Below, piece after piece: positions 4,029-32,365 of a stretch of DNA of 45,917 nucleotides. How positions within the stretch are numbered: the stretch's first letter is position 1; each line of letters opens with the position of its first letter. Location of the stretch: IMG/VR virus record IMGVR_UViG_3300032242_001593, positions 1 through 45,917 of that record; one strand, written 5' to 3'. This DNA is from a virus. The notes under the pieces are model-generated. The model was not told the origin of the DNA, did no database searches, and saw only the letters and a program-made list of their open reading frames with translations. The position numbers were made by a program, and so were the translations under genes.

Positions 4029-4037
4029 TACTAGTAT

Positions 4038-4111: not shown

Positions 4112-4156
4112 CATATCTTTTATATGTCATACATATATTTGTTGATTCAGTTTATT

Positions 4157-4229: not shown

Positions 4230-4234
4230 TTTAT

Positions 4235-13196: not shown

Positions 13197-13215
13197 CTTT
13201 CATTTAGGTATCATC

Positions 13216-14301: not shown

Positions 14302-14309
14302 GGTAAATT

Positions 14310-17434: not shown

Positions 17435-18167
17435 AGTATACTCACCTAGAATACACAATTTAGGAGACTTTGCCAATTGTCTTCCTACTCTATCTGGATT
17501 ATACAAGACTACAGGACTAAAAATGTCCTTTGGTATTTGTGATCGATTGCAGAGATTTAAAGGCATTAAAGAACTATTACTACAACAAGAAATGTTTGCT
17601 GAAGTTCATTTTATGCATGAGAGACCTACCATATCAGAGTACATTGTGATAGATGATACTGGATTGGATAATAACCACGGCGTGAATCCTTATGCCACAC
17701 AAAGATACACAAATTTTGTTATCGACAATTATAAAATTCAATTTGAAACCGATTCAAATTTTGAATTAATAGTTCCAAAATTGGATATTGATTACCAACA
17801 AGATAGGTTTATAATTGGTGATAGATGGTCGCCAAAAGATGCTCCCGATGTTGATGATAGAAGATATTCCAATATGATAGAGTCTTTAGGTTTAGTACCT
17901 GAAAATAAGAGTTTTTATCTTGACTATACCAAGGATTTGATATATAATTGTTCTATGGTTAAGTATAATCCTAATACTTTTATAACCACATTTACAGGTA
18001 TTGGTATTTTAGCCGACTTAATGAAAAAAGATTTGTGTGTTTTATGGGGAGAAGATGTGAGGAATTGGGCAGGAAAGCCTGTTGTTAATTCTTTTGAGAC
18101 GCACTACTACTTTAATAGAAAAGCAAAATTAGTATACGTGAACGACTTTAATGTGGAGACCATTTAA
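17421..18167 (+). CDS. Putative GT-B (family 9-like) glycosyltransferase
   Basis: 248-residue soluble protein: N-terminal N-L-G-D-F-A-N-C-L-P-T-L-S-G-L-Y (about 13-28) matches the 'GDxxxxlPxl.al' opening of heptosyltransferase-like family 9 enzymes, and the C-terminal half has F-I-I-G-D-R-W-S-P-K, then F-T-G-I-G-I-L-A-D-L and L-C-V-L-W-G-E. It is shorter than bacterial family 9 enzymes, so it may be a reduced form. The start overlaps the HtrL-like gene by 14 bases. Assignment is by pattern only. Confidence 0.6.
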   Translation: MNLLKVYSPRIHNLGDFANCLPTLSGLYKTTGLKMSFGICDRLQRFKGIKELLLQQEMFAEVHFMHERPTISEYIVIDDTGLDNNHGVNPYATQRYTNFVIDNYKIQFETDSNFELIVPKLDIDYQQDRFIIGDRWSPKDAPDVDDRRYSNMIESLGLVPENKSFYLDYTKDLIYNCSMVKYNPNTFITTFTGIGILADLMKKDLCVLWGEDVRNWAGKPVVNSFETHYYFNRKAKLVYVNDFNVETI

Positions 18168-18665
18168 TTGGAAACTATAAAATTTAACAATAAGAATTAT
18201 CCTTTGTTTCAAACTGAGGGTAATGCTTCTCAGTTTTCTATACCTTTCGCCAAACATTTTTGTAAAGGCAAAGGTTACGACATTGGCTGCAACCGTTTAG
18301 AATGGGCATTTCCTGGTGCTACACCAATCGATTTGTCATTCGATGATGAATGGGAAGCATATAATCTACCAGGTCCTGTAGATTACATTTATTCTAGTCA
18401 TTGTCTAGAACATCTGGTTGATTGGGTAAAGGCTCTTGATTACTGGACCAAGTGTTTAAACAACAAAGGAATCCTTTTTCTATATTTGCCTCACTACGAT
18501 CAGGAATACTGGCGTCCATGGAATAACAGAAAACATAATCACATTTTCAGTCCACAAATAATTAAAGACTACATGGTATCTAGAAATTACACAAACATTT
18601 TTCATTCAGAAAGAGACCTGAATGATTCATTCATTATAGTTGGTGAATTGAATAATGGTGATTAA
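18168..18665 (+). CDS. SAM-dependent methyltransferase, class I (TTG start)
   Basis: 165-residue class I methyltransferase core: G-K-G-Y-D-I-G-C-N-R (motif I, about 34-43), P-I-D-L-S (motif II acid, about 52-56), D-Y-I-Y-S-S-H-C-L-E-H-L (about 72-83) and G-I-L-F-L-Y-L-P-H-Y (about 101-110). The L-E-H-L pattern is typical of small-molecule or sugar methyltransferases. The start is TTG at 18168, immediately after the previous stop; no in-frame ATG exists before the C-terminal part. In this cluster O-methylation of a sugar residue is the most natural role, but unproven. Confidence 0.8.
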   Translation: METIKFNNKNYPLFQTEGNASQFSIPFAKHFCKGKGYDIGCNRLEWAFPGATPIDLSFDDEWEAYNLPGPVDYIYSSHCLEHLVDWVKALDYWTKCLNNKGILFLYLPHYDQEYWRPWNNRKHNHIFSPQIIKDYMVSRNYTNIFHSERDLNDSFIIVGELNNGD

Positions 18666-19359
18666 TATACCTCTTGGGGCTTTTGGTGGTCCATTAAGAA
18701 ATGGAGACCTGATAGGTGTAGCCAACATCGTCGAACATCTACGCCAGAGTGACTCAACAATTTCTTTCTATTTGATGCCTGATGCAATATCAAACTCCGA
18801 GTATTGCCATAGATTTTACAAGTTTCTTGTAGAAAATACCAATTATTTTTCAAAAGAACCAGGAAATAATGTTATCAATTGGAGAAATATTAGTGTTTGG
18901 GATTATCGAGGAATTTCTGGAGATATCGTCAAGATACACAACACTAAAAAGAAAGAAAGAAAGATAGTTATATTCCCTTTGTTTAACGCACAATATAACC
19001 AATACAGAAATTGGCCTGTCAGACTATTTGAAGAATTAATCCATAAGTATAACTCAGATATGTACTTTGATTACAAGAAAGTTATTTGTACAGAAGATAA
19101 CATAACAGTAGAAGGTTGGGAAACCTCTAAAGATTTTATGGCAAATATTGATCATATCATGACGAGTGAAATATTTGTCGGTGGAGATACCGGAACTAGT
19201 CATTTTGTGGGTGCGTTAGTTAATGGACCAGACGAGATATTTTATTACTGTTCTGGTCATGGCTTGTTACACACAACACCTTTTTATTCTTTATCGGGAA
19301 AAGGTACATTAGTGCAATACTGGAAAGATGTTGAAAATCAAGATTGGAACAGACAATGA
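18655..19359 (+). CDS. Putative GT-B (family 9-like) glycosyltransferase, second copy
   Basis: 234 residues: N-terminal P-L-G-A-F-G-G-P-L-R-N-G-D-L-I-G-V-A-N, then I-V-I-F-P-L-F-N-A-Q-Y-N-Q-Y-R-N-W-P (about 102-118) as in heptosyltransferase-like enzymes ('hPga...NWP..f..L'), and F-V-G-G-D-T-G-T-S-H-F-V-G-A-L (about 178-192), equivalent to the 'sgDTGpmHlAaAL' nucleotide-sugar site of family 9. That last motif makes it the better supported of the two GT-B-like genes. The start overlaps the methyltransferase gene by 11 bases. Confidence 0.72.
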   Translation: MVINIPLGAFGGPLRNGDLIGVANIVEHLRQSDSTISFYLMPDAISNSEYCHRFYKFLVENTNYFSKEPGNNVINWRNISVWDYRGISGDIVKIHNTKKKERKIVIFPLFNAQYNQYRNWPVRLFEELIHKYNSDMYFDYKKVICTEDNITVEGWETSKDFMANIDHIMTSEIFVGGDTGTSHFVGALVNGPDEIFYYCSGHGLLHTTPFYSLSGKGTLVQYWKDVENQDWNRQ

Positions 19360-20057
19360 ATATAAAATTATATAGCCATGTAGTAAATATTGGTAATGGC
19401 ATGGATATTACTCATGAACAAGCAGACCTTCTGGAACAAACTGGATTACTGGATGCTTGCCAATCAGCCGAGTTTTTTCTGCACTTCAAAGAGAGTGATT
19501 ATGATTGGTTGAAAGACCGTTGGAAGAACAGATCGAATGTTTCTTTTCACGTATTCGATGAATCATACCAACCTTGGTACGAAGCTACGTCTGTAAACTA
19601 TCTGCAAGAGTATTGTCACAACACGCAGGAAGATTTCTATGCGTGTTTCATTACACATAAAGGTGTGAGTCATGGACCAGGCGGTCATCAGAACTGGCGC
19701 AAGTATATGCAGTACTGGAACATAGAAAAATGGAAAGAGTGTGTAGAAAAGTTGGACGAAGGATACGATACCTGTGGTGCCTCTTTTTTAAACAACCCGC
19801 CATATCCTTATTATGCTGGTAACTTCTTTTGGGCCAAATCATCGTACTTACGGCGTTGCCGCAGACTAAAGACTCCGGCAGATAACAATTACGAACCACA
19901 ATTCGTCGGTCAACCACATCATCGTTACGACCTTGAGTGTTGGCATGGCAGTGGTAATCCAAAATGGTATGATATGCATCCAGGTGAAGATAATAGATGG
20001 TATTCACCACCCAACAATTATCGAAACGATATCTTAACTTTTAATACAACAGTGTAA
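19356..20057 (+). CDS. Putative glycosyltransferase-like protein with GNFFWAKS motif
   Basis: 233 residues from ATG 19356, which overlaps the previous stop (ATGA); a start at 19344 is also open. Landmarks are H-V-V-N-I-G-N-G, F-L-H-F, W-K-E-C-V-E-K-L and Y-A-G-N-F-F-W-A-K-S-S-Y-L-R-R (about 156-170), followed by a His/Trp-rich C-terminus. It is a diverged paralog of the 2848-3726 product. The motif recurs in uncharacterised sugar-transfer proteins. Placement between glycosyltransferases and RfbH supports a glycan role; the reaction is unknown. Confidence 0.65.
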   Translation: MNIKLYSHVVNIGNGMDITHEQADLLEQTGLLDACQSAEFFLHFKESDYDWLKDRWKNRSNVSFHVFDESYQPWYEATSVNYLQEYCHNTQEDFYACFITHKGVSHGPGGHQNWRKYMQYWNIEKWKECVEKLDEGYDTCGASFLNNPPYPYYAGNFFWAKSSYLRRCRRLKTPADNNYEPQFVGQPHHRYDLECWHGSGNPKWYDMHPGEDNRWYSPPNNYRNDILTFNTTV

Positions 20058-20059
20058 TT

Positions 20060-21340
20060 ATGAATACAAAAGAAATGATTGAGAGTTTGTCCAAAACAAT
20101 TCAGCCAAAGTACGTGAAGAACTATGACGATTATCAAGATGGTCAGTTCGTGCAATACTCAGGTCAATTATGGGACGAGAAAGAAATGTTTGCGGCCATG
20201 GATACACTACTTAATGGTAAGTGGATTACCGCAGGTGAACGTGTCGCACAATTTCAAATCAAGTTCAGTAAGAGATTCAATGTAAAGTATTCTCACATGG
20301 TCAACTCAGGAAGTTCGGCCAACCTGGTACTCATTACTGCAATGAAGAAGAAGTTTGGTTGGAAAGAAGGCGATGAGGTTATTGTTTCACCTGTTGGATT
20401 TCCAACAACTATTGCGCCTATTGTACAGAATGGTTTGAAACCGGTCTTTATTGACATCGAACTCGACACACTAAATTTTGATGTTAACCTAATTGAGTCT
20501 AAGATCACCAACAGAACCAAAGCAATACTGGTTTCTCCTGTTCTTGGTAATCCTCCTGATATCGACGCATTACTTGATATCTGTAAGACTCATAATCTAA
20601 TCCTTTTGGGTGATAACTGTGACTCTCTTGGTACTCTATGGAGAGACAAGTTACTCACCGATTATTACTACGCATGGACAACATCATTTTATCCTGCACA
20701 CCATATCTCGACTGGTGAAGGTGGTATGGTGTGTTCGAACGATGAAGAATTTATCAAAGAAGCCCGCAGCATTTCTTGGTGGGGTCGAGACTGTTATTGC
20801 ATTGGTTCCAACAACCTTTTAGAGTGTGGTACTTGTGGTAACAGATTTGATAACTGGTTAGATAATTATGACGGCATTATTGATCATAAGTATCTGTTCA
20901 CCAATATTGGTTACAATCTTAAACCATTAGATTTACAAGGTGCAATTGGTATTGAACAATTGAAGAAGTTTGATATGCTTGAGAGTAAGCGTAGAGAGTA
21001 TAAGGCCAAGATTCAAAAATTCATTGAGGATAATGTTGATGTTGCTAGAGTCATAAACGCAACAGAAAACTCTGATCCGTCTTGGTTCGGTGTTCCTATT
21101 TACTGTTCTTCACAGTCAGGAAAAGAATCACTAGTCAAGCACCTAGAAGATAATAAGATACAGACCAGAAACTATTTTAGTGGAAACATACTACTACATC
21201 CAGGTTACAAACATTTAGATGACTATAAACAATATCCAAACTCCAATTTGGCTTTGAGTAATGTATTCTTTATTGGTTGTTCACCTTTATATAATGATAA
21301 GGTGCTTTCTTACATTGAGAAGGTTCTGAAAAAATGGTAA
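20060..21340 (+). CDS. rfbH: RfbH/E1-type sugar 3-dehydrase (DegT/DnrJ fold)
   Basis: 426-residue PLP-fold enzyme of the DegT/DnrJ/EryC1 family. The expected PLP-binding lysine is replaced: T-S-F-Y-P-A-H-H-I-S-T-G-E-G-G (208-222) has His214 where aminotransferases have Lys. This marks PMP-dependent 3-dehydrases such as RfbH/E1. Cysteines 245, 247, 256 and 259 (G-R-D-C-Y-C ... C-G-T-C-G-N-R-F) fit the iron-sulfur site of that group. Such enzymes start C3 deoxygenation of a 4-keto-6-deoxy sugar nucleotide and need an electron-transfer reductase, which I do not see here. RfbA/RfbB upstream could supply a dTDP-4-keto-6-deoxy substrate, although classical RfbH uses CDP sugars. Confidence 0.88.
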   Translation: MNTKEMIESLSKTIQPKYVKNYDDYQDGQFVQYSGQLWDEKEMFAAMDTLLNGKWITAGERVAQFQIKFSKRFNVKYSHMVNSGSSANLVLITAMKKKFGWKEGDEVIVSPVGFPTTIAPIVQNGLKPVFIDIELDTLNFDVNLIESKITNRTKAILVSPVLGNPPDIDALLDICKTHNLILLGDNCDSLGTLWRDKLLTDYYYAWTTSFYPAHHISTGEGGMVCSNDEEFIKEARSISWWGRDCYCIGSNNLLECGTCGNRFDNWLDNYDGIIDHKYLFTNIGYNLKPLDLQGAIGIEQLKKFDMLESKRREYKAKIQKFIEDNVDVARVINATENSDPSWFGVPIYCSSQSGKESLVKHLEDNKIQTRNYFSGNILLHPGYKHLDDYKQYPNSNLALSNVFFIGCSPLYNDKVLSYIEKVLKKW

Positions 21341-22161
21341 ACCTTTTAGGTAAAGGGTTTGTCGGTGGAAGATACTGTGAATTGTATCCTGACGTTATCG
21401 TAAATGACCGAGAAGATTATGAAGTAAAAAGCAACAATGTTTTATACTTTATATCGACGGTTGATAACTATAACGTACATACAGATCCTTATATTGATAT
21501 TGAAACCAATCTTATAAAATTGATAGAAACGTTAGAGTCTTGTAAAGGTAAAGACGTAACATTCAATTTTATAAGTTCTTGGTTTGTATATGGATCTACC
21601 GATCTTCCTGCCAGAGAAGATTCATATTGTAATCCAACAGGATTCTATTCTATTACCAAGAGATGTGCAGAACAGTTATTGATATCTTATTGCCAAATAT
21701 TTGGTATAAATTATAGAATATTGAGGTTGGCTAATGTTTTAGGTAACCAAGATAAAAAAGTCTCCAAGAAAAAGAATGCCATACAGTATATGATAGGACA
21801 AGTTCTTAGGAACGAGACGGTTTCTCTATATGACGGAGGAACATCTTATAGAGATTGTATTCATGTGGATGACGCTTGCCAAGCTATTAATCTTGTTCTT
21901 GAAAAGGGAAATCTGAACGAAATCTATAACATTGGTAATGGAGTACCTGTAAATATATATGACGTTATACATTATGCGTTTTCAAAGTCTGGGTCTACTT
22001 CTAAGATTGAGAACATAGAGACAACTGAATTTCACAAGATAGTACAAACAACAAATATGGTTTTAGATGTTTCCAAGATAAAATTACTAGGTTACATACC
22101 AAAATACGACAAATACAGTATCATAGATTCTCTAATTGGAATAGAAAACCCAACAAAATAG
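21334..22161 (+). CDS. NAD-dependent sugar epimerase/dehydratase (SDR)
   Basis: 275-residue extended SDR: L-L-G-K-G-F-V-G-G-R-Y (3-14) is the Rossmann loop, N-F-I-S-S-W-F-V-Y-G (about 78-87) the catalytic Ser strand, and F-Y-S-I-T-K (about 106-111) the YxxxK pair. R-L-A-N-V-L-G, Y-R-D-C-I-H-V-D-D-A and I-Y-N-I-G-N-G complete the family signature. The substrate is probably the keto-sugar left by RfbH or RfbB. It overlaps rfbH by 7 bases and ends the glycan cluster; a gap of about 100 bases with a late promoter follows. Confidence 0.85.
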   Translation: MVNLLGKGFVGGRYCELYPDVIVNDREDYEVKSNNVLYFISTVDNYNVHTDPYIDIETNLIKLIETLESCKGKDVTFNFISSWFVYGSTDLPAREDSYCNPTGFYSITKRCAEQLLISYCQIFGINYRILRLANVLGNQDKKVSKKKNAIQYMIGQVLRNETVSLYDGGTSYRDCIHVDDACQAINLVLEKGNLNEIYNIGNGVPVNIYDVIHYAFSKSGSTSKIENIETTEFHKIVQTTNMVLDVSKIKLLGYIPKYDKYSIIDSLIGIENPTK

Positions 22162-22217: not shown

Positions 22218-22225
22218 TATAAATA
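22218..22225 (+). promoter_or_regulatory. T4-type late promoter box TATAAATA
   Basis: Exact TATAAATA, the -10-like element read in T4 by the gp55 late sigma factor. It lies in the only intergenic gap between the glycan cluster and the head-content genes, 38 bases before the ATG at 22264. It should open late transcription of the following module. Confidence 0.7.
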
Positions 22226-22263: not shown

Positions 22264-23439
22264 ATGCAAACATTTAAAACGTTTCTCACTGAAGAGGAAG
22301 AAGGCGCGAAACTTAAACACATTACTCATGTGGAAGATCGCCCTCTACAAAACGGATCTTCCGGATTCAAGCGAGCTTATGACGTACTTACTGCAGCACA
22401 TAACCACATTAAGTCTGGTGGTCATTCTTCTGCATTAACAATGAAATACGATGGTTCTCCTGCTATCGTATTCGGTCGTCATCCAGAAACGGGCAAGTTC
22501 TTTGTCGCTTCTAAGTCGGCATTTAATAAGAATCCCAAAATCAATTACTCACACGAAGATATTGAAAAGAACCATGGCCATGCACCTGGTCTTACCGAAA
22601 AACTACACTCGGCATTAAACCACCTTAAGAAGATTGCGCCCAAGTCTGGAGTATATCAGGGTGACCTGATGTTCTCAGAAAGAGACAAGAAAGAAGAGAA
22701 AGATGGTGGTGTATCGTTTGAACCTAATACAATCCGATATAAAGCCAAAGGTGAAGATGCAGATAGGGTTCGCAGAGCCAAACTAGGTGTGGTGGTACAC
22801 ACTCAGTATCATGGTGATGATATCAATTCTATGCGGGCTGACTCACATCCAGACCTTCATCATTTTGCTTCACATCCCGATGTTTGGACAAAACCAGCCA
22901 ACCATGATACCAGACAGGTACACTATTCTGATAAAGACCAAGAAGAATTCTTAAATCATATTAAGAAGGCTAAAGAGATACATGATGCTCATGGAAAGAA
23001 GATGTATTCTGCCGTTACGCCTCATGCAGGTGCTGGTAACCATTTAGAGACATACATCAACCATACCGTCAGAACAGGTGAGACTCCTTCGGCCGAAGGT
23101 CTAAAAAAACATATTGCAGATAAACTTAATAAAAATATTAAGAAGGTAAGTACTCCTGCTGCTAAAGGTCGTTATCAAGCTCAGGCTGACGCTCACGCCA
23201 AGCATATAGACCAACATAAAGAACATTACGACAATCTATTAGCAATGCATCATCACTTGCAACAGGCTAAGAATGTTCTGGTACGAAATTTAGAACAACA
23301 CCAAGGTGGATTGCAACATACGATTAACGGAAAGAAAACAGGTCCAGAAGGGTTTGTGTTTAATCACGGTGGAGAGCCGGATAAATTAGTTAACAGAGCC
23401 GAGTTTGCCCGTGCCAACCTATTAAAAGTGCGTAAATGA
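22264..23439 (+). CDS. Ligase-fold nucleotidyltransferase-like protein with capsid-targeting-like N-terminus (DUF6267-like)
   Basis: 391 residues. Residues 1-10 (M-Q-T-F-K-T-F-L-T-E) match the T4 internal-protein targeting peptide with a prohead-protease-like L-x-E end. The body carries ATP-dependent ligase-type motifs in order: motif I K61-Y-D-G-S-P, motif III-like Y-Q-G-D-L-M-F (131-137), motif IV E-G-F-V-F (362-366) and motif V-like K-L-V-N-R (374-378). Ligase-fold enzymes attach AMP to the motif I lysine. A long His/Lys-rich helical insert (about 210-345) lies between motifs III and IV. Whether it seals RNA, DNA or something else is unknown. Late promoter upstream; ATGA coupling with the next gene. 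Confidence 0.75.
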   Translation: MQTFKTFLTEEEEGAKLKHITHVEDRPLQNGSSGFKRAYDVLTAAHNHIKSGGHSSALTMKYDGSPAIVFGRHPETGKFFVASKSAFNKNPKINYSHEDIEKNHGHAPGLTEKLHSALNHLKKIAPKSGVYQGDLMFSERDKKEEKDGGVSFEPNTIRYKAKGEDADRVRRAKLGVVVHTQYHGDDINSMRADSHPDLHHFASHPDVWTKPANHDTRQVHYSDKDQEEFLNHIKKAKEIHDAHGKKMYSAVTPHAGAGNHLETYINHTVRTGETPSAEGLKKHIADKLNKNIKKVSTPAAKGRYQAQADAHAKHIDQHKEHYDNLLAMHHHLQQAKNVLVRNLEQHQGGLQHTINGKKTGPEGFVFNHGGEPDKLVNRAEFARANLLKVRK

Positions 23440-25343
23440 AAACATTTAGAGACCTATTAGAAGAGAATGAACCAAAGAAACCGGTTGTAGTTGGGTTTGG
23501 TCGTTATAACCCACCAACAACGGGTCATCTTAAACTCATCGATAAAGTTCGTGAAGTTGCCGATAAGCACAAGGCAAAACATACCGTTATTGTGTCTCAC
23601 TCACAGGACGCTAAGAAAAATCCTTTGTCTGCTGCTCAGAAAATAAAGCATCTAAAAAGATATTCTCCTGGTACTCACTTCGAATCTTCTTCTAAAGATA
23701 TGCCGACGCTTCTACACCATGCAGCCAGACTCCATGCCGCCGGCCACGACCATTTAATCGTTGTTGCTGGATCTGATCGTGTTAAAGAGTTTCACGATCT
23801 TTTACACAGATACAACAATGTTAACGGTCGTCATGGCCATTACAACTTCAAGAAAATTTCTGTAGTATCTGCTGGCCACCGAGATCCAGATGCCGAAGGT
23901 GAGGAAGGTATGTCGGGTACCAAAATGCGCCAACACGCAAAAAATAATGACTTTTCATCATTCCGTCATGGCGTACCATCACACGTTTCAGATCAACACA
24001 CGAAAGAACTCATGCACGATGTCCGTAAAGGCATGGGTATGAACGAGTCCTTTGATCGAGGTATGTTCAAAGCAATATTCATTACAGGCGGACCTGGTTC
24101 AGGTAAAGATGTTGTGATTCGTGAAGGTGTTGCATCAGAAAAAATAGTCGAAATGAATTTCAATCAAGTTGTTGATATTTTAAATAATATACATAACCGA
24201 GCGATGAAGTCGATGAATCCATTAATGGATGCGATTGTTTCAAGAGGTCCTCTTATTATTAATGGACCAGCAGAACAGTTTGATAATATTAGATCAATAA
24301 AAGAACAATTAGAATCATTTGGTTATGATACTCTTATGGTATTTGTTGATACCACAAACGAAGAAAGTAAGAATCGAAATTCTAACCACAAAAGAATGAT
24401 GGTCGAATCCATTCGTCTAGAAAAGTGGAAATCAGCACAAAATAATAAGAAACATTTTACTGATGTATTTGAAAATTATCTTTGGTTTGATAATACAGGA
24501 TCAATTCAAGAAAAAGAAGAAGATATCGATGACATTTATAACGTAATCAAAAATTTTCTCGATTATAAACCAAACAATGAAAATGTAATTGATTGGATGG
24601 AAAGAAATGGTAAAATTACCATCAATGAAAAGTTTAATATGACATTTAAGGAAGCCAACAATGTTCAAAAAAATTCTAAATCTATTCAGAAAGCAACAGT
24701 CTCAAAATATAACCATGAACTTAGAGCCGTTGCCCCAGGCGAATCCACCCCAGACAATGCTCCCACAGATAAAAATGCCGACAATATCAAATGGGACGCA
24801 AACAAACGGACCAAAACTTACACCTTCGGCCAAGGCAGCGGCGTCTACGCGGAAGCCTCGAGCGCCAAAATTAGATGGCGGCCAGAACCAAAAGAAAGCA
24901 ACTTCTCGCAAGATAACGACAAAATCAAAAAGAAAAAGCTAGGAGATACTTCTCTAAGTGCTGGTAGAATTGGTAAACCCAGCGGTGTCGGACCAGAATA
25001 CGATACCAGAGCTGGTGGCCAGAGTGCTGCTGCCGGCGCAGGCCTTGGTAACCAAACATATGCAGAGAGTCAGGAATATAGTAATGCGAGTCCATCTTCT
25101 GCCGCATTACCTGGTGGTTCTGTACAACCAAATCCATTGAGTAATCAATATGATGCACCATCAAAGAAGTCTTTCAAGAAATTTAGAATGAAAGAGGCTA
25201 TAGACGATCCAGGTGCAGTTGATATGGGCGTTGGTGGTACATTAGGTGGTGCAAGTAACAAAGAACCTATGCAGACACCTATGGACAAATTTGGTCTTTC
25301 TGGTATAACAATAAAAAAGAAAAAGAAGAATGTTAGGGTTTAA
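23436..25343 (+). CDS. Nucleotidylyltransferase + P-loop kinase fusion with capsid-targeting-like N-terminus
   Basis: 635 residues, three parts. Residues 1-10 (M-K-T-F-R-D-L-L-E-E) are the targeting-like peptide. Residues about 15-200 form a HxGH-type nucleotidylyltransferase: F-G-R-Y-N-P-P-T-T-G-H (21-31) and M-S-G-T-K-M-R (159-165), as in NMN adenylyltransferase/phosphopantetheine enzymes. Residues about 208-390 are a P-loop kinase with Walker A G-G-P-G-S-G-K-D (218-225), plausibly a polynucleotide or nucleoside kinase. Residues about 400-635 are low-complexity, Gly/Pro/Ser/Lys-rich, ending in a basic tail, suggesting a disordered capsid-associated region. Coupled to both neighbours by overlaps. 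Substrates are unknown. Confidence 0.75.
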   Translation: MKTFRDLLEENEPKKPVVVGFGRYNPPTTGHLKLIDKVREVADKHKAKHTVIVSHSQDAKKNPLSAAQKIKHLKRYSPGTHFESSSKDMPTLLHHAARLHAAGHDHLIVVAGSDRVKEFHDLLHRYNNVNGRHGHYNFKKISVVSAGHRDPDAEGEEGMSGTKMRQHAKNNDFSSFRHGVPSHVSDQHTKELMHDVRKGMGMNESFDRGMFKAIFITGGPGSGKDVVIREGVASEKIVEMNFNQVVDILNNIHNRAMKSMNPLMDAIVSRGPLIINGPAEQFDNIRSIKEQLESFGYDTLMVFVDTTNEESKNRNSNHKRMMVESIRLEKWKSAQNNKKHFTDVFENYLWFDNTGSIQEKEEDIDDIYNVIKNFLDYKPNNENVIDWMERNGKITINEKFNMTFKEANNVQKNSKSIQKATVSKYNHELRAVAPGESTPDNAPTDKNADNIKWDANKRTKTYTFGQGSGVYAEASSAKIRWRPEPKESNFSQDNDKIKKKKLGDTSLSAGRIGKPSGVGPEYDTRAGGQSAAAGAGLGNQTYAESQEYSNASPSSAALPGGSVQPNPLSNQYDAPSKKSFKKFRMKEAIDDPGAVDMGVGGTLGGASNKEPMQTPMDKFGLSGITIKKKKKNVRV

Positions 25344-25950
25344 GCAGTTCATAATTGAATCCGTACATCATGAGGGAGGACACCTTCACAATTTTGACAT
25401 TGATGGTACATTATTTCATCCTGACGTAAGAGTTAAAGTGATGCACGGCGCACATCATGTTGAATCCTTGACCCATCATGAATTTAATACTCACGTATTA
25501 AAACCTGGACATCATTATGATTTTTCTGAGTTTAAATCATCAAAGAAATTTGAACGGTCTAAACCTATACCTAAGATGCTTAATAAACTGCAAGCCATTC
25601 ATAGGAATATAAAAAATAAACCAAGACATAGAATAATTCTAAATACAGCAAGGGCCGATTTTGACGATAAGCCTCGTTTTCTAAATGCTCTGAAAAGACA
25701 TGGAATAGATACCGAAAAGGTCCGTGTTGAAAGAGCCGGAAATGATGCAAGTCAGATACCTACTGGCGAGAAAAAAGCAAGAATTATTAGTAGACATTTA
25801 GAGACTGGAAAGTACAAACACGTATCATTATATGACGATGATAAAGAAAATTTGAGTCACTTCCTAAAATTAAGGAAGAAGCATCCAAATGTTCAGTTTC
25901 ATGCTTACCATGTTCATCACGACGGTTCAACAAGAAAATTTGAAGAATAA
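25330..25950 (+). CDS. HAD-fold phosphatase with capsid-targeting-like N-terminus
   Basis: 206 residues. The N-terminal M-L-G-F-K-Q-F-I-I-E (1-10) again has the targeting-like form. The HAD core shows motif I F-D-I-D-G-T-L (22-28, nucleophile Asp23), motif II L-N-T-A-R-A-D (104-110), a lysine near 148-149 for motif III, and motif IV L-Y-D-D-D-K-E-N (167-174). Similar HAD domains form the 3'-phosphatase half of T4-type polynucleotide kinase-phosphatase; here it follows a P-loop kinase as a separate gene. Many His residues lie in the insert between motifs I and II. The start overlaps the previous gene by 14 bases. The substrate is unproven. Confidence 0.78.
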   Translation: MLGFKQFIIESVHHEGGHLHNFDIDGTLFHPDVRVKVMHGAHHVESLTHHEFNTHVLKPGHHYDFSEFKSSKKFERSKPIPKMLNKLQAIHRNIKNKPRHRIILNTARADFDDKPRFLNALKRHGIDTEKVRVERAGNDASQIPTGEKKARIISRHLETGKYKHVSLYDDDKENLSHFLKLRKKHPNVQFHAYHVHHDGSTRKFEE

Positions 25951-25964
25951 ACTAGGAGACGCAG

Positions 25965-28061
25965 ATGTTTCATAATAATAAGAAAACTGACGCAGTTGCA
26001 GAAGCTGTAAAAAAGATATTGGAAGTTTCTGAATCTGTTGAATCAGTTGAAGAAGATATGCACAAACCATTGATGCCTGCTCAAAAAATGGTGCAGAAGA
26101 AAGTTGATGCTGAAACAAAGAAACAAAATCCTCCCAAGAAACAGGCTGGCACCAATATTGCCGCGGCGATGGGTGGATTGAATAAAGAAGAAAAATCCTT
26201 CAAAGACCGTCTCATTGAAGCATTCAAACAGAAAGAGAATCCAGAAGAACTTCTTCCTGATTTAGAAGAAGAAATGTCAGATTCACAAAAGAAGAAGCGT
26301 GAAGAAATTGTGATGTCGATGAAAGACAGAACCTCTTACTTCAAGAAGAAGTATGGTGCTAAATGGAAGAACGTAATGTATGCAACTGCTACCAAGCAAG
26401 CCATGGGTGAGCAGATTGTTTATGACGACTACATTTACGACCGCGTTGTAGAAGCCACCCATGACGATGAAGAAGAAGCTGAGAAGCAGATGAAAGCACA
26501 CAATGCTGACCCCGATTCACATAAGCCAGCCATCAAGAAGATGGTCAAAAAGGATTGCCTGAAGTCGGAAGAAGTCGAGCAGATTGATGAGCTCAAGGCA
26601 TCTACTCTGCGTTCATATGTTACTAAAAGACAATCTTCTGATAAAGAAAGTGGCAAGGGCGCTGAAATAGCTTTAGCAATGACAAAGGCTAAAGGTAAGC
26701 CACCATTTCCAGGAATGAAAGACGCTAAAGTTCATGCGACTAAAGAAGAAGTCGATCAGTATGATGAAGAAGAACACGCCGGTCATTTAGGCCATGCCGC
26801 TCGTCAGGCAGCCAAAGCTGGTAAAAAAATGTTTACTCTTGGTGGCAAAACATTTCCAGTAAAAGTAAAAGCGGTTAAAGAAAATAATGAGAGTCACACT
26901 CATGCAGCCCATTACGAAGATCCAAAAACTGGCGAATGGACCGGAATGAAACTTATTTCTGCAACAGACGATAAAGATGCTATCGAGCAAGCGCATAAGA
27001 ATTGCGAAGATGGATGCCGTTTGTCTAAAGTGGAACGTCATATTCCAGTTAAAGAAGAAGTCGAACAGGTCGATGAGGGTGGAATGCCTTCTAGCGTAAT
27101 TAAGAGCAAGCAAGCTAGAGAAAAGATGTCGCCAGAAGAGTTACACGCACACGTTAAAAGCCTTCAAGCCAAGGGTGGTCCTATATTTGGCGGTAAGTCT
27201 GTAGAACATATTGCTAGAGAAATGGCATGGAGCCATGGTCATGGTAAGATGTCGCCTCATTATTGGAATAGAATTAAACATCTAGAACCAAAGAATGAAG
27301 AAGTCGAACAGGTTGATGAGATTTCAACTAAGTTAGCAAATAGATATTTCTCAAAAGCAAGTAAGCAATCACAAAAGCGTGGTGCTAAGGATCGTGATGC
27401 TGGTATGGCCATGGCATATAAAAAGGTGCAGGGTCGCCATGCTAATGTTCCTACTACTGATCGGCGGAACCAGCAAGAGCTGTTACCTGCAAGAGAAGAA
27501 GTAGTATTTGAAGCTTCCGAACAAGACATAGACGATAAAGATATAACAACAGATACGCTCGGTGGTCGTGTTGCTGACGGTAAAGTAAATTCATTCAAGA
27601 ATTTCAAAGTCAAATTAAAGAGCGACAGAGAATATCAGAGAGCTCCCGATGACAGAGATAGTATTCCTGCATCTACTGCGGCTCGTGCTTCAATAACAGC
27701 AAAGAAGTGGAATCCACCATCGAATGTTAAGACAGAAGAAGTTGAGCTTGATGAAAAGAAAAAGTCTCATATGCTTGTCATTCCTAAGAAGCCAGACCCT
27801 AAGACTGGAAGAAAGGATGTCAAAAAGATTCCTGCTCATATGTGGCCGCAGATGAGAGACACACATTATCAAGCCGAAGAAGTCGACCTTGAAGAAGGAA
27901 AAGATCCATCAATGGATGCTGGTGTAGGTTCTGAACCATATTTCGTACAAAATGCAAATACATCTTCAAATCCATCACCAAAGCACACACCTATGTCTAA
28001 GGCTAAAGAATTAGCTCATAAAACAATTGGTAAAATTAAGGCCGACTTAGGAAGAAAATAA
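25965..28061 (+). CDS. Polyprotein-like head/core protein with EEVEQVDE repeats
   Basis: 698-residue, highly charged protein built of small basic modules separated by acidic linkers of the form E-E-V-E-Q-I/V-D-E (near residues 202-209, 364-371, 445-452), with variants E-E-V-D-Q-Y-D-E (261-268), E-E-V-E-L-D-E and E-E-V-D-L-E-E near the end. Two modules look related (I-D-E-L-K-A-S-T-L-R-S-Y and V-D-E-I-S-T-K-L-A-N-R-Y, each followed by a Lys-rich part and A-M-x-x-A/K). Such repeats occur in head-associated proteins of T4-like phages. The I/V-D-E ends resemble prohead-protease sites, so processing into internal peptides is possible. AGGAGACGCAG ribosome site. Function is inferred. Confidence 0.7.
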   Translation: MFHNNKKTDAVAEAVKKILEVSESVESVEEDMHKPLMPAQKMVQKKVDAETKKQNPPKKQAGTNIAAAMGGLNKEEKSFKDRLIEAFKQKENPEELLPDLEEEMSDSQKKKREEIVMSMKDRTSYFKKKYGAKWKNVMYATATKQAMGEQIVYDDYIYDRVVEATHDDEEEAEKQMKAHNADPDSHKPAIKKMVKKDCLKSEEVEQIDELKASTLRSYVTKRQSSDKESGKGAEIALAMTKAKGKPPFPGMKDAKVHATKEEVDQYDEEEHAGHLGHAARQAAKAGKKMFTLGGKTFPVKVKAVKENNESHTHAAHYEDPKTGEWTGMKLISATDDKDAIEQAHKNCEDGCRLSKVERHIPVKEEVEQVDEGGMPSSVIKSKQAREKMSPEELHAHVKSLQAKGGPIFGGKSVEHIAREMAWSHGHGKMSPHYWNRIKHLEPKNEEVEQVDEISTKLANRYFSKASKQSQKRGAKDRDAGMAMAYKKVQGRHANVPTTDRRNQQELLPAREEVVFEASEQDIDDKDITTDTLGGRVADGKVNSFKNFKVKLKSDREYQRAPDDRDSIPASTAARASITAKKWNPPSNVKTEEVELDEKKKSHMLVIPKKPDPKTGRKDVKKIPAHMWPQMRDTHYQAEEVDLEEGKDPSMDAGVGSEPYFVQNANTSSNPSPKHTPMSKAKELAHKTIGKIKADLGRK
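26568..27320 (+). repeat. Dispersed 24-base repeats encoding EEVEQ(I/V)DE linkers
   Basis: Near-identical 24-base units start at 26568, 26746 (diverged), 27054 and 27297, each beginning GAAGAAGTCGA and encoding E-E-V-x-Q-x-D-E. Shorter relatives lie near 27737 and 27879. The spacing between units (about 180-290 bases) corresponds to one small module each. Both protein and DNA sequence are conserved, suggesting duplication or recombination between units. Confidence 0.75.
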
Positions 28062-29116
28062 TGGACGACCGTGCAAAGAAACTTAAAGAATTGATTAAAC
28101 GGCCAGCACCAAAGTCAACTTTTGGTACGAATCCTACAGACCCATGGTCAGCAAAGTATGATCTTGCTGAGACTGCTATGTTGGATCGTTATCTCAGTTC
28201 AAGAGGAATAAACCCTAAGTTTCTTCCTGTTTCCGCCAAAGTTTCTCATGCAAAGTCAAATCAATTCAAAATGTGGGCCCAAAATCACCGTAATGAAGAG
28301 GTGCAAGCCGAGGATCTCAGTCATACTGCTCAACAACCCGGTGGCAAAACTGCCGAAAGAGCAAAAGAGTTAAAGAATCGAGTCAAACAACACAAAGAAA
28401 TTAAGACTCCTCCAACTTCAATGCACACGATTAGAAATGTCAAACCGCATCAAGAAGAACATACCAACTGTGGTACTCCTGATTGTTGCGGTCAATGTGA
28501 TACGGTAGAAGATATTGTTGAAGCCGCCCAACACGATGCCGTTACCTCGCATCTCCATAAACACGGAATTGGTTCTCATTGGAGAAACAATAACACCTTA
28601 GCGGTTCATGACAAGCACGTAGATAAAGTGCAGAAGTTCATGGACAAACACACAGGCGGTTATGTCAACGTTGTGGGTCATTCAGAAGATCCAGTTAAAG
28701 AAGATGTATATCAAGATCCACAGGCGGCAACACAGACCGTATTCGATGGTGCCAACAATACCAATGACCTTGCCGAAAAGAGAAGGCAATTGTCTAAGTC
28801 TGCTCGTATGATTAAGTCACTCTATAGAAAGCATAGAATGTATGAAGATATGTACGATCATGAAAAAGAAGATAAGTCTGTGGCCACGTATGGCAAGAAG
28901 CCAAAAATGGACACCGTAGACAAAAAAGATAGTATGGGTGAAAACAAACCAAAAGCATCCGCTGTGGTTTCAGGTGGAACAACATTGACTGGTCAAGACA
29001 GAGATACCGTTGAGATTGATCCACAAATGAGAGTTCGTCCTGGTCAACCTGATCCTACCAAAAAGGATGACAAGAAAAAGGATGACGATAAGAAAGAAGG
29101 CAAGAAAGATAAATAA
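28061..29116 (+). CDS. Head-associated protein of unknown function with Cys cluster and charged tail
   Basis: 351 residues. The N-terminal part has D-P-W-S-A-K-Y-D (about 27-34), M-L-D-R-Y-L-S-S-R-G-I-N-P-K-F (about 40-54) and S-H-A-K-S-N-Q-F-K-M-W (about 62-72), a conserved block in T4-like phages of aquatic hosts. A short cysteine cluster C-G-T-P-D-C-C-G-Q-C (about 138-147) could bind metal. The C-terminal 100 residues are disordered-looking, ending in a long Lys/Asp run. The start overlaps the previous stop (TAATG). Its place between the repeat protein and a virion protein suggests head or core function; nothing more specific can be seen. Confidence 0.65.
   Translation: MDDRAKKLKELIKRPAPKSTFGTNPTDPWSAKYDLAETAMLDRYLSSRGINPKFLPVSAKVSHAKSNQFKMWAQNHRNEEVQAEDLSHTAQQPGGKTAERAKELKNRVKQHKEIKTPPTSMHTIRNVKPHQEEHTNCGTPDCCGQCDTVEDIVEAAQHDAVTSHLHKHGIGSHWRNNNTLAVHDKHVDKVQKFMDKHTGGYVNVVGHSEDPVKEDVYQDPQAATQTVFDGANNTNDLAEKRRQLSKSARMIKSLYRKHRMYEDMYDHEKEDKSVATYGKKPKMDTVDKKDSMGENKPKASAVVSGGTTLTGQDRDTVEIDPQMRVRPGQPDPTKKDDKKKDDDKKEGKKDK
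29108..29115 (+). promoter_or_regulatory. Probable variant late promoter box (GATAAATA)
   Basis: GATAAATA, one base from the consensus TATAAATA, spans the stop codon of the preceding gene and lies 33 bases before the ATG of the virion protein at 29149. The spacing resembles the exact boxes at 22218 and 32979. Confidence 0.45.
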
Positions 29117-29148
29117 GTAGAAACCTTTGATTTCACAGGAGATATAAA

Positions 29149-29745
29149 ATGCCATCATGGGGTAATACAGACGCAGCAACCGCAAAACCAAAGTGGAATG
29201 CAGAGCGTCAAGCAAGAGAAGTTGTTGTTCTCACTACAGCTAATAGTACTGCTGTTAGTGCGAACACCATAAAATTTACATATTACGACGGATACCAAAA
29301 CAATCTCGCCAATGTTGGTGTTGCTGTTGGTCAATCTGTTATCGCTGTGAATTTAGCAAGTAATGGTGTTTCGAATTATTTTACTTCGAACAACCAAGTC
29401 GCGTCTATTAACGGAAACCTAGTATCATTTACAGCCAACACGTTTGGAACAATTGCTGCTGGTGCATCAATTGAGTTCGATGCGGTTATTCCTTATCTTG
29501 CCGCGAAGGGTGTGACAAAAACATATAATCCCGACACTGTATTGGTAACAGCGACACGCACGAGCTCGGCCAATAATAATATTGGTGGTAATCTTAGTCC
29601 AGGTTGGATGCACGTTCAAAAGAAAGTAAATAACGATGGTACTGTTCGCTATATCAGAGAAACCTTAATTTCTTTGGCTAGCCCATCAGCTTCTAACGTT
29701 TATTCTGGTAACACTTCATGGGGCGTGGCTTTCGCCAATACCTAA
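29149..29745 (+). CDS. Putative virion structural protein
   Basis: 198 residues, rich in Ala, Asn, Ser, Thr and Val, with little charge, the composition of an exposed beta-sandwich virion protein. The N-terminus M-P-S-W-G-N-T-D-A-A-T-A-K-P-K-W matches the opening of structural proteins I recall from T4-like cyanophages (M-P-x-F-G-N-T-D). The C-terminal part has G-W-M-H-V-Q-K-K and R-Y-I-R-E-T-L-I. A strong ribosome site (AGGAGATATAAA) and a probable late promoter box suggest high late expression. Exact location in the virion cannot be told. The stop overlaps the next ATG by one base. Confidence 0.65.
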   Translation: MPSWGNTDAATAKPKWNAERQAREVVVLTTANSTAVSANTIKFTYYDGYQNNLANVGVAVGQSVIAVNLASNGVSNYFTSNNQVASINGNLVSFTANTFGTIAAGASIEFDAVIPYLAAKGVTKTYNPDTVLVTATRTSSANNNIGGNLSPGWMHVQKKVNNDGTVRYIRETLISLASPSASNVYSGNTSWGVAFANT

Positions 29746-30251
29746 TGATTAAATTTCGTGAATTTATCAGTGAAGGTGGTTACAACGTTCCTGTTGTATC
29801 GTTGGATAAGGAAAAGGTTGACTTATCCAACGAATCCACCCGAAATGAAATTAATAGAAACCTTGCAGCGGTCTTGTCAAGTGGATCAACTAACCCCTAT
29901 GGCAGCTGGATAAGAATTAGCAAGGTTCTATCAATGTATGGAGTTAACTTACCAAGAGTTACATTCCAAGACGCAGAAGAAGGCGAAGAAGTTGTAGAAA
30001 TAAATCAGTTTGGTGAGAAATGGGGTGCAAGTCTTGACGGCACCGTTACTCAACCAAACGATATTGGATATCCTGATTACTATCTTTATTTCAATTACGG
30101 AATAGGTGAAAATGGGTTCTATGAGTCTTTCGCAACGGTAACGGATGAAGAAGGACTAAATGATTTTATTGGTGATGATGTTGATGAGGCAGATGAAATA
30201 TTGCCCGACGAACTCACACCAAAGGATCAATTAGAAGTAACACCACAATAA
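29745..30251 (+). CDS. Conserved phage protein with capsid-targeting-like N-terminus
   Basis: 168 residues from ATG 29745 (TAATG overlap with the previous stop); the frame is open back to 29718 but that part is shadow. The first ten residues M-I-K-F-R-E-F-I-S-E are nearly the T4 internal-protein peptide, with I-S-E as the potential cleavage site. The rest is acidic: N-E-S-T-R-N-E-I-N-R-N-L (about 28-39), N-P-Y-G-S-W (about 50-55), P-D-Y-Y-L-Y-F-N-Y (about 104-112), then a strongly acidic tail. Conserved in T4-like phages, function unknown. Packaging in the capsid is inferred from the peptide. Confidence 0.7.
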   Translation: MIKFREFISEGGYNVPVVSLDKEKVDLSNESTRNEINRNLAAVLSSGSTNPYGSWIRISKVLSMYGVNLPRVTFQDAEEGEEVVEINQFGEKWGASLDGTVTQPNDIGYPDYYLYFNYGIGENGFYESFATVTDEEGLNDFIGDDVDEADEILPDELTPKDQLEVTPQ

Positions 30252-30255
30252 CATT

Positions 30256-30642
30256 ATGTTTCAAAATTTGAATGAAGAAAACTTTATGATGTATGCGGTT
30301 AAGTGTTATACTTCTCCGCATTGCATTTTGTCTGAATTTGAAAGCGATATTAAAAGAACCAAATATCTAAAAAGATTGTTTCGTAGATATAAGGCGACAG
30401 GTTCTTTGAAAGAAAGATTAATACTTAATCATATTATTTTATTGAATAATGTTTTTGGCCAAGAGGCAACATCAAGAATATTATTCTATAAAATAGACGA
30501 AAGAGATTATGATGTTTTGAAAACCTTTTTGTCTTATCTTAATATTATGCCTGAATATGTGACTGGTATAAGAGGTAAAGACATAAATGTATCAGAAATA
30601 TTTATAGACCAATATGTCGCGGATATATTGAGGAAGATATGA
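30256..30642 (+). CDS. Small conserved phage protein (helical)
   Basis: 128 residues, mostly helical and basic: L-N-E-E-N-F-M-M-Y-A-V-K-C-Y (5-18), R-T-K-Y-L-K-R-L-F-R-R-Y (about 33-44) and L-I-L-N-H-I-I-L-L-N-N-V-F-G (about 55-68). Proteins of this form are common in the structural region of T4-like cyanophage-type genomes, but I know no function. No targeting-like peptide is present. The end overlaps the next ATG (ATGA). A possible scaffold or regulator; not assignable from sequence. Confidence 0.65.
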   Translation: MFQNLNEENFMMYAVKCYTSPHCILSEFESDIKRTKYLKRLFRRYKATGSLKERLILNHIILLNNVFGQEATSRILFYKIDERDYDVLKTFLSYLNIMPEYVTGIRGKDINVSEIFIDQYVADILRKI

Positions 30643-31139
30643 AAACTTTTAAACAGTTTATCAACGAAAAAGGAAGATGTTGGCCTGGTCATAAACCAGT
30701 TCCAGGTAAACCTGCATATTCTCCTGGTAGCTGCAAAAAAGAAGATCATGTAAAAGAATTAGAAAATGGTCTAAAACGATTAGATAGCCATGACTATGAA
30801 ACAATTAACAAGTTGATGATGAGAATATCTAAAGACCACGGTATAACAGGCCAAGAGTTACATAACGATTTTAAATCAAAACACGGAAAAACTCCGGACG
30901 ATTGGATTAATGAGGACTTAAGACAGTGGTTTAAGCAAAAATGGGTCCGCATGGACACCAAAGGTAATATTAAAGGTGGCTGTGCAAGAGAAAAAGGAGA
31001 AGGTAAACCAAAATGTTTGCCTCAAGCAAAAGCACACTCACTAGGTAAAAAAGGTCGAGCGTCAGCTGCACAAAGAAAACGTCGTGAAGATCCAAATCCA
31101 GAACGGCGCGGTAAAGCAATAAATGTTAGGACAAAATAA
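30639..31139 (+). CDS. Basic protein with capsid-targeting-like N-terminus (DUF5872-like)
   Basis: 166 residues, strongly basic. Residues 1-10 (M-K-T-F-K-Q-F-I-N-E) are the clearest targeting-like peptide in the window, directly comparable to T4 IPIII. Then C-W-P-G-H-K-P-V-P-G-K-P-A-Y (14-27), a helical middle, and R-Q-W-F-K-Q-K-W-V-R-M-D-T-K-G (about 96-110) with C-A-R-E-K-G-E-G-K-P-K-C (about 115-126), a block resembling DUF5872-type proteins, ending in K-R-R-E-D-P-N-P-E-R-R-G-K-A. The charge suggests binding to packaged DNA. Overlaps both neighbours, so co-translated. Confidence 0.72.
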   Translation: MKTFKQFINEKGRCWPGHKPVPGKPAYSPGSCKKEDHVKELENGLKRLDSHDYETINKLMMRISKDHGITGQELHNDFKSKHGKTPDDWINEDLRQWFKQKWVRMDTKGNIKGGCAREKGEGKPKCLPQAKAHSLGKKGRASAAQRKRREDPNPERRGKAINVRTK

Positions 31140-32153
31140 ATGAAAACATTAAAAGAAGTATTAGGAAAAATTGAAAATCTAGATGAAAAAAATAAACCAA
31201 CAAGTCCTGATAAATGGGCTCGCGCCAAAGCTGCAGCCAAATCTAAGTTCGCTGTTTACCCTTCTGCATACGCTAATGCTTGGGCTTCAAAGAAGTACAA
31301 GTCGATGGGTGGTGGTTGGAGAAGTACCAAAGAAGAATTTGAATTAGAAGAAGAACAGAAAAAAATTGATAAAACTAAAATAGAAAAATTTCATAAAAAG
31401 TTAGATACACTCGTTCATTCGACTTTTGGAAAAAGACCTGATGAAAAAAAGATGAAAGAAGATGTTGAAGTTATTTGGGAAGCAAAAGACGAAGATGAAG
31501 ATGATATGCCCGATAATGAGGTAGAAGTATTTGATTACGACACAAACTACTTCCATGTTTGCCCGCTAGCAACAAAATTATACAAAGACATCGAAGATAA
31601 AATTGAAGATGATGAGTATGATTTATTTGAAGGCATGGCCAAATTACAAGATTGCATTTTCTTTATTGAAAAACACCTAAAAGAAAAGAAAGGTTCACCA
31701 AAAGAAGATGACATGGGTTATCTTCTCATGGCTCAAAATATAAAAGATCAATTAGATCGTATGTTATCGATGACCACACCAGAGATGCGTATGGAACATG
31801 GATATTTACAAGGCCACATTGAAACAATTAAAGAACTTCTTGATTGGGAAAACCGTAAAGAAGAATTAGACGAAGAATATGAATGGCTAGAAGAATCTGC
31901 AGCATGGAAACGCAAAGAAGGAAAGAGTCCTACTGGCGGACTAAATGCAAAAGGTATTGCATCTTATCGCCGAGAAAATCCAGGTTCAAAATTAAAGATG
32001 GCAGTCACAGGTAAAGTAAAACCTGGTTCTAAAGCAGCAAAGCGTCGCAAGTCATTCTGCGCTCGTATGTCCGGAATGAAAGGTCCAATGAAGAAGCCAA
32101 ATGGTGAACCAACCCGTAAAGCTTTATCATTAAGGAAATGGAAATGCCGGTAA
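31140..32153 (+). CDS. Modular basic/acidic head-content protein (DUF6321-like C-terminus)
   Basis: 337 residues in three parts. The N-terminus begins M-K-T-L-K-E-V-L-G-K-I-E, a weaker version of the targeting-like peptide, then W-A-R-A-K-A-A-A-K-S-K-F-A-V-Y-P-S-A-Y-A (about 26-45) and G-G-G-W-R-S (57-62). The middle (about 75-245) is acidic and helical. The C-terminus has G-G-L-N-A-K-G-I-A-S-Y-R-R-E-N-P-G (about 268-284) and R-R-K-S-F-C-A-R-M-S-G-M-K-G-P (about 302-316), a basic block of the DUF6321 type found widely in phages. DNA or capsid binding is inference. The ATG follows the previous stop directly. Confidence 0.7.
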   Translation: MKTLKEVLGKIENLDEKNKPTSPDKWARAKAAAKSKFAVYPSAYANAWASKKYKSMGGGWRSTKEEFELEEEQKKIDKTKIEKFHKKLDTLVHSTFGKRPDEKKMKEDVEVIWEAKDEDEDDMPDNEVEVFDYDTNYFHVCPLATKLYKDIEDKIEDDEYDLFEGMAKLQDCIFFIEKHLKEKKGSPKEDDMGYLLMAQNIKDQLDRMLSMTTPEMRMEHGYLQGHIETIKELLDWENRKEELDEEYEWLEESAAWKRKEGKSPTGGLNAKGIASYRRENPGSKLKMAVTGKVKPGSKAAKRRKSFCARMSGMKGPMKKPNGEPTRKALSLRKWKCR

Positions 32154-32365
32154 AATCATTTAAAACATTTTTAGATGAAATGGGTGGCGGCGCCGGTGGC
32201 GCAGCCGCAGCAGGGCCAACAAATACAGCTGGCGGTGGACAAGTTGCTGGTATTGGTGTGGGCCCACAAGGTGAGCCTGGTGTTGATATTAGAAAAAATA
32301 AGAAAAAAAGAACGGCAGATCCAAGACTTCCTATGGGAATGGGTAGAAGAAAAAAAGTAGGTTGA
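32144..32365 (+). CDS. Small Gly/Ala-rich protein with capsid-targeting-like N-terminus
   Basis: 73 residues from ATG 32144, preferred over 32138 because AAGGA lies at a better distance. Residues 1-12 (M-P-V-K-S-F-K-T-F-L-D-E) are the targeting-like peptide with L-D-E as possible cleavage site. The rest is a Gly/Ala/Pro-rich flexible chain with a basic C-terminus (R-K-N-K-K-K-R, then G-R-R-K-K-V-G). Size and composition fit a small internal head peptide like those released from T4 internal proteins. It overlaps the end of the previous gene. Confidence 0.65.
   Translation: MPVKSFKTFLDEMGGGAGGAAAAGPTNTAGGGQVAGIGVGPQGEPGVDIRKNKKKRTADPRLPMGMGRRKKVG

Follow-up and report, generated by a model that had tools for sequence, protein, structure and literature searches.

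An N-terminal peptide resembling the T4 capsid-targeting sequence is shared by clustered, otherwise unrelated proteins of an uncultured T4-like phage

The closest described system is the capsid-targeting sequence (CTS) of phage T4, for which mutagenesis of internal protein III (IPIII) assigned residues 4 and 7 to targeting and residues 8 and 10 to processing by the prohead protease gp21 (PMC9026906). Read from the T4 genome, this N-terminus is MKTYQEFIAE in IPII and IPIII, MKTFKEFTSTTTPVSTITE in IPI and MELITELFDE in Alt. Here we describe a comparable peptide, referred to below as the tag, in IMG/VR virus record IMGVR_UViG_3300032242_001593, a T4-like phage fragment of 45.9 kb (positions 1 to 45,917; hereafter the window) in which genes for a DNA polymerase, UvsX, a DnaB-type helicase, a primase and ribonucleotide reductase were found. 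The form M-x-x-F-x-x-[FL]-[IL]-x-E, or a close variant, opens six open reading frames (ORFs) between positions 22264 and 32365, which are named here by their start positions, and its fixed positions 4, 7, 8 and 10 are the four functional residues of IPIII. We consider it very likely that this shared N-terminus is a T4-type CTS and that the tagged cargo is packed into the capsid, cut there and delivered with the DNA.

The first-pass annotation had reported six products with one short N-terminal form on unrelated bodies, and both statements were borne out, since all six are ATG ORFs with the N-termini as first read, their number is far above the expectation from composition, and the bodies fall into different Pfam or PHROG families. 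Five genes match the strict motif, while 32144 fits it with two extra residues. Among the 50 genes of the window, 0.003 matches to M..F..[FL][IL].E were expected by composition, or 0.009 with N-terminal composition, a value itself raised by the tags. The binomial P for the tag count, 1e-13 to 1e-15, is post hoc because the motif was defined on these very genes, and we therefore relied on independent tests. Regarding the choice of starts, 29745 is internal to an ORF whose first ATG lies at 29718, its use being supported by its overlap with the upstream stop (TAATG), and the start of 32144 is ambiguous with 32138, although the tag is identical from either.

A profile built exclusively from the DUF6267 tags of other phages gave scores of 14-17 bits for three unrelated proteins of the window, 25330, 29745 (14.1 bits) and 30639 (16.9 bits), whereas 0.013% of shuffled N-termini (about 1 in 7,500) reached 12 bits; 23436 was missed because its residue 7 is Leu. 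Additionally, the density of the tag core at N-termini was about 67-fold that in protein interiors (25/17,100 vs 6/275,691, in 1,425 proteins), and a DNA scan of viral contigs for MKTFK[QE]FIxE returned at least 119 stretches, compared with one for a scrambled order of the same residues.

Conservation was followed through the relatives of these proteins in IMG/VR, where one tag peptide stood among the six query patterns, a design that might bias recovery towards copies identical to the window tag; the relatives were nevertheless found through the body, because almost all have tag residues unlike those of the query. The tag was kept in 62 of 72 relatives of the DUF6267 protein, several others having L-x-E slightly downstream, and in an alignment of 31 DUF6267 sequences conservation of F4 and E10 reached at least 90%, with drift at residues 2, 3, 5, 6, 9 and 11-16. 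Likewise, 29 of 42 HAD relatives of 25330 were strictly tagged, with several more near-forms, whereas some orthologues of other families have no I/L8-x-E10 site. The bodies proved exchangeable: in L068-L070 the kinase domain, which lies inside 23436 in the window, is encoded separately and opens with a tag of its own, MKNFKDF, and in other phages the tag is immediately followed by the domain that is C-terminal in the 30639 family (MKSFKQYLGEDLRQWFKQKW). To judge from these arrangements, the tag goes with the N-terminus and not with the body. The occurrence of the same tag on non-homologous bodies, a CTS feature, was present both in the window and among the tagged ORFs of other viral contigs. 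Among the matches listed, 90 ORFs with the exact form MKTFK[QE]FIxE fell into 54 body clusters, and Pfam identified behind this form an ART-PolyVal ADP-ribosyltransferase (1e-23), a zeta-toxin-like kinase (5e-15), a glucosaminidase (4e-13) and a DPBB lytic transglycolase domain (3e-9), while weaker Zn-protease and phospholipase-A2-like matches on tagged bodies were below the curated cut-offs. In L374, L433, L376 and L410, three to four tagged ORFs lay close together on the contig; in L376 and L410 another tagged protein comes after a tagged ADP-ribosyltransferase, and in L441 the tag occurred in a 350-kb virus contig of jumbo size that also has an S77 protease. In phage C48C1 (OQ984149, 63451-64857), the deposited cytidyltransferase start at 63514 drops a perfect tag, MKNFSQYLLE, and wrongly annotated starts may hide tags elsewhere.

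The remaining CTS features were compared position by position. An aromatic or hydrophobic residue at positions 4 and 7 of a putative propeptide of about 10 residues was present, the exceptions being Leu7 in 23436, the loss of F4 in 31140 and the two-residue extension in 32144; the pair I/L8 and E10 was also present, with the site shifted to residue 12 in 32144 and to residue 16 in 31140. The weaker start at 31140 that the first-pass annotation had mentioned is accounted for as a decayed copy, given that its orthologues carry MKTFNQFLNEAETLEE and MLRFKAFLNEAEQLDE where the window has MKTLKEVLGKIENLDE, and the junction reads MKTFNQFLNEAETLEE|KNKPT in orthologues vs MKTLKEVLGKIENLDE|KNKPT in the window. 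In T4, IPI has a longer propeptide, to which the later LDE16 site of 31140 can be likened. Relatives of 32144 carry the unextended tags MKSFKEYIQE (L004) and MKSFKQFINE (L070). The T4 protein Alt undergoes cleavage at the C-terminal end too (PMC9026906), but a scan of the 1,425 proteins with the strict core found no copies of the tag at C-termini that would make such an arrangement general. As a separate observation, the end of gene 93 of cyanophage S-SCSM1 (L119, 31627-31836), a virion protein, reads ...RTFKEFLEYIE and resembles a C-terminal copy of the tag.

A gp21-like protease gene outside the window had been named as a further check. Such a gene, of the S77 family, was found in 8 of 9 relatives and in 10 of 12 tag-bearing contigs longer than 60 kb, the latter count being without a matched control set; a PF03420 search of the 45.9-kb window itself gave no match for a gp21-type (S77) prohead protease, which is uninformative since the window is a fragment. 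In the gp23 capsid proteins of the relatives, L-x-E falls within the N-terminal arm, ahead of the mature shell domain (ALFE|AAPT, RALLE|AGTH, MQLNE|TDNG, FLYE|APT), the corresponding arm of Pelagibacter phage HTVC008M has LGE|IANV, and the T4 gp23 site is LTE|AEIGG. These sites, matching at the right place, would fit a putative (L/I)-x-E specificity of the protease in the relatives. In one 188-kb contig (G003), the next gene downstream of gp23 encodes a tagged HAD phosphatase related to 25330 (77025-77645), while just upstream of gp21, with one small ORF between them, lies a tagged protein of 93 aa (73451-73729).

Evidence from virions came from published proteomes of CsCl-purified cyanophages. 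The nucleotidyltransferase (NTase) orthologues S-CREM2 ORF154 (PMC10665884), S-SZBM1_140 (PMC9146016) and S-SCSM1 ORF91 (PMC9602691) were all detected in virions by mass spectrometry, and a core cytidylyltransferase was also reported in S-SM1 virions (PMC3037559). All three virion NTases begin with the tag (S-CREM2 MKNFSSFLTE|ADEK, S-SZBM1 MRFRQFIIE|AVAA, S-SCSM1 MKSFLQFLKE|AAES), and the 47 IMG/VR relatives of the S-SCSM1 nicotinamide mononucleotide (NMN) adenylyltransferase with a complete start all read MK[SN][FLY]..FL.E, i.e., the tag or its F4L or F4Y form. Moreover, S-SCSM1 genes 89-93, 95 and 97, in the helicase-primase block that is the counterpart of the window's tagged island, are annotated as virion proteins. 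Absence of the tagged proteins from virions, which the first-pass annotation had given as one refuting outcome, is therefore not what these three proteomes report for the tagged NTase orthologues. Its other refuting outcome included the lack of a prohead protease gene, and relatives do carry that gene.

Following the T4 model, residues 4 and 7 (aromatic or hydrophobic) would recruit the tagged proteins to the prohead core late in infection, and the S77-family prohead protease gp21, whose gene would lie outside the fragment, would cut after (L/I)-x-E and free the mature proteins inside the capsid; on infection they would exit along with the DNA. The predicted cargo would comprise a NadR-like nucleotidyltransferase-kinase, the DUF6267 protein, which is possibly ligase-like, a phosphatase of the HAD superfamily and small proteins, most of them basic, and could plausibly serve nicotinamide adenine dinucleotide (NAD) or nucleic-acid metabolism as well as counter-defence in the first minutes. 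For these phages we infer the cleavage, the ejection and the roles of the cargo. The earlier suggestion of a sorting tag that loads proteins into the capsid is supported by the coincidence of the motif with the IPIII residues, by the protease in relatives and by the virion orthologues, and it extends further than first proposed.

Several observations weigh against this interpretation. The virion evidence concerns orthologues in related phages and not the window phage, and the authors of the S-CREM2 (PMC10665884) and S-SCSM1 (PMC9602691) studies allow that abundant non-virion proteins may co-purify. DUF6267 is outside the S-SZBM1 virion list (PMC9146016); the S-SZBM1 orthologue is untagged and the next gene is tagged. 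No reported processed N-terminus was found for these relatives, no head genes lie inside the window, the CTSs of T4 itself score low on the DUF6267-tag profile, and HTVC008M has degenerate tags only, namely the tag-like starts MKTLKELLRKK, MKSFKDFQNVNEK and MKTFTDFSTDLL of gp130, gp139 and gp143 in its syntenic block. As to co-purification, the tag argues for true packaging of the NTase rather than carry-over.

Among the alternatives, the one deserving most attention, which we still regard as improbable, is that the tag recruits to the prohead core proteins that are assembly aids, degraded or kept in the head without delivery to the host. In T4, gp21 likewise cleaves the core proteins gp22 and gp67 as well as gp21 itself, IPIII affects head assembly (PMC9026906), and the tagged 93-aa protein of G003 is encoded near gp21; however, those tagged bodies with recognisable domains are mostly enzymes without an assembly role, and T4 Alt and the IPs are ejected (PMC9026906). 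Less probable again is that the peptide is another localisation signal, for the membrane, the replisome or the tail, and that detection in virions reflects contamination. Although the cluster is placed between replication genes and contamination is allowed for by the authors of two of the proteomes, the positions on which a protease site depends, residue 8 and E10, are conserved, the capsid proteins of related phages follow the same (L/I)-x-E rule, and the S-SCSM1 island is rich in virion proteins.

Two explanations that deny the peptide any role in sorting fare worse. A short peptide could spread through recombination, so the shared start might stem by descent from one duplicated N-terminal segment, which we consider very unlikely: F4 and E10 are kept while neighbouring residues drift, one tag form stands on 54 body types across contigs among the matches listed, and the tag codons in the window differ at synonymous sites, so the window tags are not recent copies. 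Recent duplication of the tag was rejected on these codon differences. Chance resemblance, which a short motif defined after the fact invites, is refuted by the out-of-sample profile, scrambled-pattern and N-terminus-density controls, and we give it almost no credence. A T4-type CTS thus remains our preferred explanation of the shared N-terminus.

The tagged genes are restricted to one island of the window (22264-32365), where they make up 6 of 11 genes against 0 of 39 elsewhere (Fisher P 3e-5). Its features are compiled in Table 1.

Table 1. Tags, predicted cut sites and gene bodies of the island, with the box preceding it (window positions).
Feature	Position	Strand	Remarks
TATAAATA, T4-type late-promoter-like box	22218..22225	+	39 nt upstream of first tagged gene
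Tag MQTFKTFLTE	22264..22293	+	predicted cut after LTE10; orthologues tagged at 62/72 loci
DUF6267 body	22294..23439	+	Pfam 1.1e-99
Tag MKTFRDLLEE	23436..23465	+	predicted cut after LEE10; M1, K2, F4, E10 invariant in 6 sequences
Cytidylyl/NMN-adenylyltransferase-like domain and P-loop kinase, long tail	23466..25343	+	PF01467 1.6e-8
Tag MLGFKQFIIE	25330..25359	+	predicted cut after IIE10
HAD-superfamily phosphatase-like body	25360..25950	+	FDIDGTLF, TARAD motifs
Untagged island protein, 698 aa	25965..28061	+	seven [VLI][DE]E motifs, EEVEQVDE-type repeats
Untagged island protein, no assigned function	28061..29116	+	
Untagged island protein	29149..29745	+	weakly related to S-SZBM1 virion protein YP_010656619 (phmmer E 0.001)
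Tag MIKFREFISE	29745..29774	+	predicted cut after ISE10; stop/start overlap with upstream gene
Acidic protein, no assigned function	29775..30251	+	isoelectric point (pI) 4.1
Tag MKTFKQFINE	30639..30668	+	predicted cut after INE10
Basic protein, phrog_727-related	30669..31139	+	pI 10.0
Decayed tag MKTLKEVLGKIENLDE	31140..31187	+	F4 and E10 lost, LDE16 site retained
Body with C-terminal DUF6321	31188..32153	+	Pfam 1.7e-23
Tag MPVKSFKTFLDE	32144..32179	+	predicted cut after LDE12
Small Gly/Ala-rich basic protein	32180..32365	+	pI 10.7

Regarding the bodies, residues K61-x-D63-G64, E362-G363 and K374 were invariant in the 31 aligned DUF6267 sequences. By our own assignment they could represent motifs I (KxDG), IV (EG) and V (Lys), making DUF6267 a possible covalent, ligase-like nucleotidyltransferase, and they hint at an unrecognised enzyme of this type with a large helical insertion. 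Its AlphaFold2 model had a mean predicted local distance difference test (pLDDT) score of 88, with residues 1-15 disordered outside the confident body, and a Foldseek search with this model returned several ligases at E 0.7-1.6, none of them significant. Amyloid-precursor-like helical matches of the DUF6267 profile (E 0.009) were rejected as general helical similarity. The family occurs in 470 phage records, and no mention of it was found in the literature searched. For 23436, a low-confidence model (pLDDT 67) matched ATP sulfurylase (1i2d, 3e-8) and NadR (6gye, 2e-6) in Foldseek, suggesting a NadR-like architecture of an NMN-adenylyltransferase-like domain and a P-loop kinase. The 25330 protein matched the polynucleotide kinase phrog_415 weakly (7e-5); PDB sequence searches with 23436 and 25330 found nothing, and tblastn of 25330 against phage records gave no match. 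Regarding the smaller proteins, 29745, for which a database search returned two relatives only, has marginal similarity to HTVC008M gp139, whose start is MKSFKDFQNVNE, and 30639 is weakly related to S-CREM2 ORF160, listed among the virion-detected proteins. The first-pass description of the cargo as enzymes and basic proteins holds for the enzyme-like and the mostly basic members, while the acidic 29745 product prevents its extension to an all-basic set. A combined role of the cargo set in NAD or end-repair metabolism is speculation. Among the untagged proteins, 25965 was enriched in [VLI][DE]E over shuffles (P 0.001) and is possibly a multiply cleaved core protein; an L-x-E excess in the untagged island proteins was discarded as proof of multiple cleavage, since only this broader count in 25965 clearly stood out.

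The window shares its synteny broadly with HTVC008M and cyanophages, in which the helicase-primase gap is likewise a block of mostly hypothetical genes. The TATAAATA box is only suggestive of a late promoter before the first tagged gene, since its count across the window was at chance level, with no over-representation. Elsewhere in the window, sixteen tRNA genes lie within the first 4.3 kb (339-4309), and the 12 kb between the helicase and the tagged island (10233-22161) resemble, by eye, a block of sugar-nucleotide and glycosyltransferase genes.

The mechanism is known from T4. In the literature searched, which excluded most subscription titles, we found no description of the cargo set, of the way it is clustered or of a tag spread over dozens of families. 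Nor did that literature yield a previous account of the tag in these phages, and a T4 head review was the only text that pairs 'capsid targeting' with 'cyanophage'. On balance we lean slightly towards a broader proposal, in which the tag marks an open-ended, modular injected repertoire of uncultured T4-like viruses, at least one 350-kb contig among them, any body placed behind it becoming cargo, and the window encodes an NAD and nucleic-acid kit acting before phage gene expression. For marine and freshwater T4-like phages, if the proposal is true, DNA alone would list likely injected effectors, including ADP-ribosyltransferases, zeta-type kinases, muralytic domains and dozens of unassigned families, probably directed at taking over the host early or at anti-phage defence. 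Tags of this kind would be packaging signals beyond T4, and would explain the recurring NMN adenylyltransferases and cytidylyltransferases of cyanophage virion proteomes with predictions down to the cut site.

When compared to other known systems, the Dar proteins of phage P1 share the principle of an N-terminal signal (in DarB, a packaging signal) that sends a defence-related protein into the head, but the Dar N-termini have no common consensus. Phages SPN3US and phiKZ likewise package many ejection proteins with the DNA, several of them processed by a prohead protease, although their propeptides and their cleavage motif, of A-x-E type, differ. The virion NTases of S-CREM2, S-SZBM1, S-SCSM1 and S-SM1 have an orthologous NTase domain, with a syntenic cluster in S-SZBM1 and S-SCSM1 and the tag itself in the three N-termini read (S-CREM2, S-SZBM1 and S-SCSM1), whereas the window protein adds a kinase domain and the accessible text of the cyanophage papers does not mention the tag. 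With the T4 CTS, the tag has in common an aromatic residue 4, an aromatic residue or Leu at position 7, I/L8, E10 and the (L/I)-x-E rule, as seen in T4 IPIII (MKTYQEFIAE) next to window 30639 (MKTFKQFINE), together with related phages that have an S77 protease and a matching gp23 site. The first-pass annotation had attributed such a tag to T4 IPI-IPIII and Alt, which holds for IPII and IPIII, and in divergent form for IPI and Alt. The window differs from T4 in having more tagged genes, gathered in one helicase-primase island, several enzymes rather than small basic proteins, and F rather than Y at position 4. Judged by every sequence feature testable, the tag belongs to the T4 CTS system.

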